Below, in pieces: positions 31,962 through 35,665 of a DNA stretch of 41,726 nt (the first letter of the stretch is position 1; each line of letters begins with the position of its first letter). A model generated the notes under the pieces. That model did no database searches, was not told the origin of the DNA, and was given only the letters and a program-made list of their open reading frames with translations. This DNA is from Caldithrix sp. Its GTDB lineage: Bacteria; Zhuqueibacterota; Zhuqueibacteria; Oceanimicrobiales; Oceanimicrobiaceae. The stretch spans positions 1-41,726 of the forward strand of contig SMXC01000167.1 in assembly GCA_004356825.1 (NCBI GenBank), in the 5' to 3' direction. Position numbers and translations under genes: made by a program.

Positions 31962-32984
31962 ATGAAGATCGCCATTGACGCTATGGGCGGTGATTATGCC
32001 CCTGAAGCCATCATCCATGGAGGCGTTGAGGCTGCCAAGTCTGGGAAAGGAGAATATGAGGTCGTATTTGTTGGAGATGAATCCACAATAAGTTCAATTC
32101 TTTCCAGACATTTTAGAATCCAAGAATATCCAATATCAATTATTCATGCATCTCAAAAGATCGAGATGTGTGAAACTCCTACCGTTGCTTTGAAAAAAAA
32201 ACCCGATGCTTCTGTTGTCGTTGCGATGAAGTTGCACAAACAGGGCAAAGTCGACGCCGTTGTAACTGCGGGTCATACCGGCGCTTCGATGGCTTCAGCT
32301 TTTTTTAGCTTGGGCAGGATAAAAGGAGTCAGGCGTCCTGCCATCGGCTCGCTCATCCCCCATGGGCAGGGAGTGACTTTACTCATTGATGTCGGTGCCA
32401 ATTTAGAATGTAAACCGATTCACTTATTACAATTTGGAATAATGGGTGACATCTATATGAAAAATGTTTATCATATTGCTGAGCCCAAAATAGGTTTGCT
32501 TAATATTGGCGAGGAAGCGACAAAGGGTAACAAAATTCATAAAGAAGGAAATAGAATTCTTACTGAGAGTAACTTGAACTTCGTCGGCAATGTTGAGGGC
32601 AGAGACATCATGAGCGGACTCGTGGATGTCATCGTCTGCGAGGGCTTTGTCGGCAATGTTGTCTTGAAGTTTGCTGAGAGTTTTAACGGAGTTTACTCCA
32701 AAACTCTAAAAAGAAAGATTGGGAAAAAAGTATTTTCAAACATCGGTGCGTTTTTTTTAAAACCGACGTTTAAGAGACTGCGTCGAATTTATGACTATGA
32801 AGAATATGGTGGCGCTCCTTTGTTAGGCATAAACGGAACCTGTATGATTTGTCACGGAAGTTCGACCCCCAAGGCAATTATGCACGCAGTCATAGAGGCA
32901 AGCTCCATGATTAAGCAACGGGTGAATGAAAAGATAAGTCAGGAACTTGTCGGAATGATGGAGGAGGGAAAAAATGCAGAATAA
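31962..32984 (+). CDS. plsX: Phosphate acyltransferase PlsX
   Basis: It converts acyl-ACP to acyl-phosphate, the substrate for PlsY in phosphatidic acid synthesis. The 340-aa protein starts MKIAIDAMGGDYAPEAIIHG and has TAGHTGASMASA, LLIDVGANLECKP and GVNGTC-type residues in the C-terminal part (GINGTCMICHGSS). It overlaps fabH by 11 bases, suggesting translational coupling. Confidence 0.96.
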   Translation: MKIAIDAMGGDYAPEAIIHGGVEAAKSGKGEYEVVFVGDESTISSILSRHFRIQEYPISIIHASQKIEMCETPTVALKKKPDASVVVAMKLHKQGKVDAVVTAGHTGASMASAFFSLGRIKGVRRPAIGSLIPHGQGVTLLIDVGANLECKPIHLLQFGIMGDIYMKNVYHIAEPKIGLLNIGEEATKGNKIHKEGNRILTESNLNFVGNVEGRDIMSGLVDVIVCEGFVGNVVLKFAESFNGVYSKTLKRKIGKKVFSNIGAFFLKPTFKRLRRIYDYEEYGGAPLLGINGTCMICHGSSTPKAIMHAVIEASSMIKQRVNEKISQELVGMMEEGKNAE

Positions 32985-33966
32985 GACTGTGAGTTCAATG
33001 ATCTGCGGGATAGGCGCGGCCGTTCCGGAGAGAATTCTCACCAATGCCGATTTGGCAAAAATGGTGGATACCACTGACCAGTGGATTCATGAACGCACGG
33101 GAATGAAAGTCCGTCATATAGTTGACGATAAGGTGCAGAATTCTGACTTATCTGCACAAGCTGCAAAGAAAGCTTTGGACGATGCACAAATGACCGCCGA
33201 AGAAATTGACACAATTATCGTCGCGACAGTGACCGGCGATGTCAGATTCCCTGCCACCGCCTGCTATGTCCAGGAAAAAATTGGCGCTGTAAATGCCGCC
33301 GCTTTTGATATTTCAGCCGCGTGTTCAGGCTTTCTTTTCGGACTTAGAATCGCCGACGCATTTATCGCATCCGGAAAAAGTAAGAATGTCCTGATCATTG
33401 GCTGTGAAATTCTGTCCAGAATAGTGGATTGGAAAGACCGGGCAACCTGTGTTTTATTTGGCGATGCAGCAGGTGCTGCCATTGTGGGCCCGGCAAATAA
33501 CGACGGCCGCGGTGTTTTAGGAACATTTATCAAGACCGATGGCAGGCTCACTCAACTCTTGTGGGCGCCCGGCGGCGGTACCCGATTCCCTGCGGAGGTA
33601 GCTTTAAGTGAGAACATGAATAGTATCAAAATGAAGGGGCAGGAGGTGTTCAAAGCTGCAGTTACTGCAATGGGTGACGCGGCTGTCCATATATTGGAAG
33701 AAACCGGGATAACGCCGGATGAGATCGATCTTCTGATCCCTCACCAGGCAAATATCAGGATCATTAATGCGACTGCGCGCCGTTTGAAAATGCCGATGGA
33801 AAAAGTTTTTGTAAACGTACAAGACTATGGCAATACTTCGGCGGCCTCTATTCCGTTAGCGCTCACCGAAGCACGCCAAAAAGGAATTTTAAAAGACGGC
33901 GACATTTGTGTGATGGTAGCTTTTGGCGGCGGCTTTACCTGGGCTTCGGCTGCGGTCCGATTTTAA
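32974..33966 (+). CDS. fabH: Beta-ketoacyl-ACP synthase III
   Basis: It starts fatty-acid synthesis by condensing acetyl-CoA with malonyl-ACP. The 330-aa protein has all catalytic residues: Cys in DISAACSGF, His in IPHQANIRI and Asn in GNTSAAS. The overlap with plsX and the following fabD, fabG, acpP and fabF place it in the standard lipid operon. The start chosen (ATG 32974) gives MQNKTVSSMICGIGAAVPE, a normal N-terminus. Confidence 0.96.
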   Translation: MQNKTVSSMICGIGAAVPERILTNADLAKMVDTTDQWIHERTGMKVRHIVDDKVQNSDLSAQAAKKALDDAQMTAEEIDTIIVATVTGDVRFPATACYVQEKIGAVNAAAFDISAACSGFLFGLRIADAFIASGKSKNVLIIGCEILSRIVDWKDRATCVLFGDAAGAAIVGPANNDGRGVLGTFIKTDGRLTQLLWAPGGGTRFPAEVALSENMNSIKMKGQEVFKAAVTAMGDAAVHILEETGITPDEIDLLIPHQANIRIINATARRLKMPMEKVFVNVQDYGNTSAASIPLALTEARQKGILKDGDICVMVAFGGGFTWASAAVRF

Positions 33967-34003
33967 ATCCATTTACGATTTTTGAATTTTACGGAGGGTA
34001 AAA

Positions 34004-34921
34004 ATCGGTAGACTAGCATTTATATTTCCTGGCCAGGGTTCGCAGTTTGTGGGAATGGCAAAAGATCTATATGACCGTTGTGAGTATGTAAAGCAAACCT
34101 ATAAGAGGGCCAATGAAATTCTTGGGTTTGATTTGGCCGAAATCTGTTTTAACGGACCCGAGGAAGAACTCAAGCAAACCCGGGTCACTCAGCCGGCAAT
34201 TTTTGTACACAGCGCTCTCTTAATAAATTTTTTTAGTGATAAGAATATTAAGCCGGCAATGGCGGCCGGACATAGTCTTGGCGAATATTCCGCTCTTTAC
34301 TGCGCAGAGGCTTTGACCTTCGACGACACATTAAGATTGGTCAAAGTTCGTGCAGAACTTATGCAAAAAGCCGGTGAAATCAATAAAGGGACTATGGCAG
34401 CGTTCATTGGCTTGCAGGAGGATGTTGTTGCAGAAGTTTGTGAAAGTGCAAGTTCCGCGGGCGTTGTTCAGGTTGCGAATTTTAATTCACCGGGACAAAT
34501 TGTGATTTCCGGATCTGTTGCCGGGGTAAATCGCGCTATCGAAATCGCCAAAGAAAAGGGGGCGAAGCGGGCAATTCTGCTTGGAGTTGGCGGCGCCTTT
34601 CATTCTCCTTTAATGGAATATGCTTCCGAAGGATTGCAGAAAGCGCTGGCAGAAGTTGAGATTAAGCCCACAAGTATCCCGGTTTATTCAAATGTGCATG
34701 CGAAGCCAATTACTCAACCGGACGAAATCAGACAGCTTTTGGCAGCACAGCTAACAAGTCCGGTGCAATGGCTGAAGATTGTAAGAAACATGATCCAGGA
34801 TGGCGCTTCGGAGTTTTATGAAGTGGGACCCGGCTCGGTTTTAAGAGGCCTTTTAAAACGGATTAACCGAGAAGTTACCGGAAAATCGATTGGTAAATTA
34901 TCTGATTTGGAAAATAACTGA
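34004..34921 (+). CDS. fabD: Malonyl-CoA:ACP transacylase with apparent AUC start
   Basis: It loads malonate onto ACP. Ser of the nucleophile motif GHSLGEYSAL and the His of GAFHSPLM are present. The ORF-track start (GTG 34049) would delete the essential N-terminal FPGQGSQ oxyanion motif, which is encoded in frame just upstream. Between the preceding in-frame stop at 33983 and that motif there is no ATG, GTG or TTG. A GGAGGG ribosome site (33993-33998) points to ATC at 34004, giving GRLAFIFPGQGSQ, exactly where a FabD start belongs. It may be a real non-canonical AUC start or a one-base error. The stop is 3 bases before fabG. Confidence 0.9.
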   Translation: MGRLAFIFPGQGSQFVGMAKDLYDRCEYVKQTYKRANEILGFDLAEICFNGPEEELKQTRVTQPAIFVHSALLINFFSDKNIKPAMAAGHSLGEYSALYCAEALTFDDTLRLVKVRAELMQKAGEINKGTMAAFIGLQEDVVAEVCESASSAGVVQVANFNSPGQIVISGSVAGVNRAIEIAKEKGAKRAILLGVGGAFHSPLMEYASEGLQKALAEVEIKPTSIPVYSNVHAKPITQPDEIRQLLAAQLTSPVQWLKIVRNMIQDGASEFYEVGPGSVLRGLLKRINREVTGKSIGKLSDLENN

Positions 34922-34924
34922 GCG

Positions 34925-35665
34925 ATGAGTCGACCGGATAAAATTGCAATTGTGACCGGGGCCTCACGGGGAATTGGTCGAACCATTGCACTCAGACTTG
35001 CCAAAGAAGGCGCCGACCTCGTGGTAACGGCAACAACATTTGCAAGTGCCAATAAGGTAGCCGGAGAAATTGAGCAGCTTGGCCGAAAAGCGCTGGCCTT
35101 TGCTTTAAATGTCGCCGAAATTCGGGAATGTGAAAGCTTGGTCAAAACTACCCTGGAGAAATTCTCCAGGATCGATATTCTGATAAACAATGCAGGCGTC
35201 ACCAGCGATAATCTTCTCATTCGGATGAAAGAGGAAGAATGGGATAAGGTAATCGATGTAAATCTGAAAGGGACATTCAACTGCATTCGAGCCTCTACCA
35301 AAACTTTCATGAAACAACGGGCCGGAAAAATTATTAATATCACATCGGTGGTTGGAATTAGCGGCAACGCCGGTCAGGCAAACTACAGCGCCTCCAAAGC
35401 AGGCGTGATTGGATTAACAAAGTCAGTGGCCAGGGAACTTGCCCCACGGAACATTCAAGTGAATGCGGTAGCGCCCGGTTATATTGAGACGGATATGACC
35501 AAAAGTTTGCCCGACGATGTCATGCAAACTTTGATAGATGCTATTCCACTTCGCCGCATGGGCACTACGGAGGATGTGGCGTCTTTGGTTTCATTTCTGG
35601 CCTCTGAAAATTCTGATTATATTACGGGTCAAATCATTAGCGTCGACGGTGGGATGGTGATGTAG
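34925..35665 (+). CDS. fabG: 3-oxoacyl-ACP reductase
   Basis: NADPH-dependent reduction of beta-ketoacyl-ACP in fatty-acid elongation. The 246-aa SDR protein has the cofactor motif TGASRGIGRT, NNAG, the catalytic Ser-Tyr-Lys set (ITSVVGIS, YSASKAG) and the C-terminal ISVDGGM. It starts 3 bases after fabD. The N-terminal dinucleotide fold is complete. Confidence 0.97.
   Translation: MSRPDKIAIVTGASRGIGRTIALRLAKEGADLVVTATTFASANKVAGEIEQLGRKALAFALNVAEIRECESLVKTTLEKFSRIDILINNAGVTSDNLLIRMKEEEWDKVIDVNLKGTFNCIRASTKTFMKQRAGKIINITSVVGISGNAGQANYSASKAGVIGLTKSVARELAPRNIQVNAVAPGYIETDMTKSLPDDVMQTLIDAIPLRRMGTTEDVASLVSFLASENSDYITGQIISVDGGMVM

Follow-up and report, generated by a model that had tools for sequence, protein, structure and literature searches.

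The fabD locus of Caldithrix sp. raises the question of whether a core gene of fatty-acid synthesis starts at an AUC codon and, if so, what such a start does. In the window, which is the whole stretch of 41,726 nucleotides that was analysed, the gene order is plsX-fabH-fabD-fabG-acpP-fabF-rnc. The fabD gene (34004..34921, + strand) encodes a malonyl-CoA:ACP transacylase of 305 amino acids, an essential enzyme of fatty-acid synthesis. It lies between fabH (beta-ketoacyl-ACP synthase III; 32974..33966, + strand; in the open reading frame list and over the cut-off of NCBIfam PRK09352/fabH) and fabG (34925..35665, + strand; over the cut-off of TIGR01830). ATG is the start codon of its neighbours fabH, fabG, acpP, and fabF. 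Elsewhere in the window, TTG starts sucD (29497) and rpmF (31714), and GTG starts ndk (30673) and rnc (37503); among 596 starts preceded by a Shine-Dalgarno (SD) sequence in 1.57 Mb of Oceanimicrobiaceae loci, 116 are TTG and 100 are GTG.

After an in-frame TGA (33983..33985, + strand), the fabD frame reads ATT TTA CGG AGG GTA AAA, the ATC at 34004..34006 (+ strand), GGT AGA CTA GCA TTT ATA, and then FPGQGSQ. The sequence-only reading held that no ATG, GTG, or TTG lies between the stop at 33983 and FPGQGSQ, and this is confirmed: the first in-frame canonical codon is a GTG (34049..34051, + strand) that follows GQGSQ and lies 15 codons downstream of the ATC. This GTG lacks an SD, and a start there deletes strand 1 and the GQGSQ motif. 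The ribosome site that the same reading placed at the right distance is equally borne out, since 5 nt separate the ATC from the upstream SD GGAGGG (33993..33998, + strand), whose duplex with CCUCC in the 16S tail of this same genome has an energy of -10.0 kcal/mol. The fabH stop precedes the ATC by 37 nt.

The protein read from this ATC, with a predicted N-terminus of (M)GRLAFIFPGQGSQ, is recognizable as FabD over almost its full length. It scores 360 bits against TIGR00128 (ACP S-malonyltransferase; curated cut-off 260.9), with profile positions 3-289 of 290 matched at residues 4-290, and solved FabD structures in the PDB align to it from residue 3. The translation contains both AFIFPGQGSQ, which comprises the N-terminal strand and GQGSQ, and GHSLGEYSA with the GHSLGE motif. 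A search of the genome itself, a fragmented draft of 358 contigs, found this gene as the single stand-alone copy; the other two FabD matches lie inside polyketide-synthase-sized frames. Four relatives (G001, G002, G006, and G007) have one FabD match each.

The start codon was compared across eight separately assembled genomes from seven genera of the Oceanimicrobiaceae, an uncultured family, including that of the window (G000). An AUH codon (AUC, AUU, or AUA) occupies the homologous position in all eight: ATC in five (G000, G001, G004, G006, and G007), ATT in G002 and G005, and ATA in G003. The third base thus varies among C, U, and A and is never G. Each of the eight codons is preceded by an SD, with energies of -7.3 to -10.4 kcal/mol; the 16S tail used for the calculation is the one identified in G000, G001, and G002. 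The AUC start proposed from the window is therefore strongly supported by comparison. The alternative raised with it, a one-base assembly or consensus error hiding a true ATG, has in its favour that the genome is a fragmented draft of 358 contigs and that ATC and ATG differ by one base. It is refuted because seven further genomes carry AUH at that codon; a non-G third base recurs in eight separate assemblies from seven genera with three different letters, which leaves an error with practically no probability. A rare start in every species examined indicates that the odd fabD start is a real, inherited feature.

Initiation could instead occur at another codon: either at an upstream start in a different frame, joined to FabD by frameshift or fusion, or at a GTG or ATG further downstream. 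A six-codon ATG mini-ORF overlaps the site in G005 (read by eye), and in some genomes a GTG or TTG stands a few codons downstream. No other-frame upstream start is common to the Oceanimicrobiaceae, however (also read by eye), the downstream candidates at +15/+17 fall beyond GQGSQ with no SD before them, and N-terminal conservation of FabD begins at the AUH codon itself; this route is accordingly very improbable. The AUC of G001 and the AUU of G005 each directly follow an in-frame TAA, and no in-frame ATG occurs until 17 codons further on, past the active-site motif, so initiation at AUC or AUU is close to forced. Under a strict criterion, the stretch from the upstream stop to the end of GQGSQ is free of canonical codons in five of the eight genomes, that of the window included. 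The remaining canonical codons are a TTG four codons upstream of AUH and overlapping the SD in G006, GTG/TTG codons 21-23 codons upstream and inside fabH in G007, and codons 5-6 codons downstream, directly before FPGQG, in G002 (GTG) and G007 (TTG). As fabD starts in G002, G006, and G007, these codons are implausible.

Outside the family, the AUH codon aligns with the ATG, GTG, or TTG of fabD orthologues in other families of the class, and in the loci that were read one of these three codons stands at or next to the position. The comparison with related genomes proposed in the sequence-only reading is thus favourable within the Oceanimicrobiaceae, where no ATG occurs, and turns to canonical codons in more distant families. 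Further loci from a search of genome contigs have ATG, GTG, or TTG fabD starts, except L033, which matches G007's own record. A single change accounts for the AUH label on the FabD tree, and none of 500 shuffles gives a count as low; the AUH group has a bootstrap of 86 and an SH-aLRT of 25. A scan of 82 genomes of the phylum for the SD-AUH-FPGQ pattern finds AUH fabD starts in the Oceanimicrobiaceae only, and two other fabD-like matches (G079 and G049) are ATG and GTG starts. Comparative sequence evidence thus strongly supports an AUH start of fabD that is real and, in the sampled genomes, confined to one family.

AUU, AUC, or AUA starts of infC, which encodes initiation factor IF3, underlie IF3 autoregulation in E. 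coli, Streptomyces, and S. aureus. In the Oceanimicrobiaceae, infC starts at AUU or AUC in seven of the seven genomes where it was found (L154:9322-9837 in G000, and L133-L139), which is consistent with the same autoregulation, and many members of the class outside the family likewise have an infC without a canonical start. The fabD start is of the same codon class and likewise stands behind an SD. The two genes differ in that infC forms a widespread feedback loop on IF3 itself, whereas fabD is the gene of a metabolic enzyme and, among the sampled genomes, has an AUH start in one family only.

The fabD start probably serves as a deliberately weak, IF3-discriminated initiation site that limits FabD and ties it to the level of IF3. 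The AUH codon, AUC in Caldithrix sp., would be decoded by the ordinary fMet-tRNA(CAU). A strong SD helix, probably together with ribosomes finishing fabH just upstream, would bring the 30S subunit to the codon, where the third-position mismatch would yield a weak initiation complex that is a target of IF3 proofreading. FabD synthesis from such a complex would be slow and would vary inversely with IF3, declining as the factor accumulates and recovering as it becomes scarce, in parallel with infC, whose start is of the same kind. Sensitivity of fabD to IF3 is a sound inference given how AUH starts are known to behave, and infC is AUH in the same genomes. A reduced FabD yield, and any physiological tie of fatty-acid synthesis to translation capacity, are inferred as well.

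A different use of a real AUH start is to set a fixed, low FabD:FabH ratio through weak re-initiation after fabH, with the IF3 level carrying no signal. In its favour, only 24-37 nt separate the fabH stop from the fabD start in seven of the eight genomes. In G004, however, the stop is 149 nt upstream and AUC behind a strong SD is retained, and a weak SD with AUG would tune the ratio as well; fixed-ratio control is thus an unlikely explanation. Re-initiation in E. coli is itself reduced when IF3 is over-produced (PMC2268962), so the re-initiation and IF3-proofreading readings overlap, and the two cannot be separated by sequence.

The initiation machinery of the genome appears ordinary. The 3′ tail of its 16S rRNA is GGATCACCTCCTTTCTA, a standard anti-SD, and tRNA-Met(CAU) has the initiator hallmarks of three G-C pairs in the anticodon stem and no 1:72 pair. 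IF3 aligns with solved IF3 structures over nearly its whole length. A changed initiator tRNA or anti-SD is rejected on the CAU anticodon, the initiator hallmarks, and the standard 16S tail; with a normal tail, tRNA, and IF3, the odd start belongs to particular genes. A cis-regulatory RNA at the fabD start is also rejected, as the site has no Rfam match and the structure around it shows nothing consistent (z from -1.8 to +1.7).

The proposed IF3-discriminated initiation at fabD leads to the question of how many genes share such a start. The ortholog test covered 1.57 Mb of Oceanimicrobiaceae DNA with about 1,090 called genes and 86 orthogroups with members in at least two genomes. Beyond the chance background, this test and scans for SD plus AUH over the same 1.57 Mb single out infC, fabD, and one ABC exporter and no other gene, on which genome-wide relaxed starts are rejected. 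The 257 genes of a 400 kb control, taken from another family, give one chance-like match. Because each genome is only partly represented in the 1.57 Mb, other AUH genes have likely escaped notice. In G003, L298:7587-8408 has an SD and a candidate ATT start without an NCBIfam match, and may be a further AUH gene or a chance match.

The ABC exporter (G000:C262:2702-4438, - strand, L321) is related to MsbA and SmdA, yet scores below their curated cut-offs. AUH stands behind an SD in six of seven genomes (L321, L253, L252, L255, L257, and L258), as ATC in G000, G001, and G004, ATT in G002 and G003, and ATA in G006; the exception is the GTG of G005 (L256). Orthologues elsewhere in the class mostly start with ATG. 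G020 belongs to a different family of the class; its version of this exporter (L272) may also start at ATC or ATT, with no ATG, GTG, or TTG before the conserved N-terminus. The exporter is a hint that infC, fabD, this MsbA/Smd-like gene, and perhaps more genes form an IF3-controlled regulon defined by the start codon alone, which is a tentative proposal more doubtful than true. If such a regulon exists, free IF3 would couple membrane-lipid synthesis and export to translation capacity.

Other non-canonical starts provide several parallels. In S. aureus, AUA and AUU starts with an extended SD give about 10% of AUG output, and those of ccpN (AUA), cvfC1 (AUU), and citZ (AUA) have been shown by Ribo-Ret and reporters (PMC13009471). 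The fabD site has the same anatomy of AUH, SD, and no conserved RNA structure, and citZ is also a gene of central metabolism; the S. aureus cases concern other genes in another phylum, whereas the fabD case is known from comparative genomics alone. Streptomyces sigR resembles fabD in its genus-wide conserved non-canonical start and strong SD, and repression by IF3 is demonstrated for its GTC-started form (PMC5472188). It differs in using GUC or GUU rather than AUH and in encoding a sigma factor with a known stoichiometry partner. E. coli pcnB has an AUU start (Binns and Masters 2002) and is likewise a gene outside translation kept low by its start. It is non-essential, whereas fabD is a core FASII gene present here as a single stand-alone copy. 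Conserved AUH starts are a known kind, of which fabD in this lineage is a new case, unusual in that the product is a core enzyme of fatty-acid synthesis; searches of the open-access literature turned up no fabD with a non-canonical start.

To our knowledge, few bacterial genes start at AUU, AUC, or AUA by design. Gene calling restricted to ATG, GTG, and TTG would truncate FabD in several Oceanimicrobiaceae genomes and lose its active-site motif. A core fatty-acid-synthesis gene with an AUH start kept across seven genera offers a clean, testable case of metabolic output set by start-codon proofreading, and if further envelope or lipid genes share this start, the family would possess a start-codon regulon.
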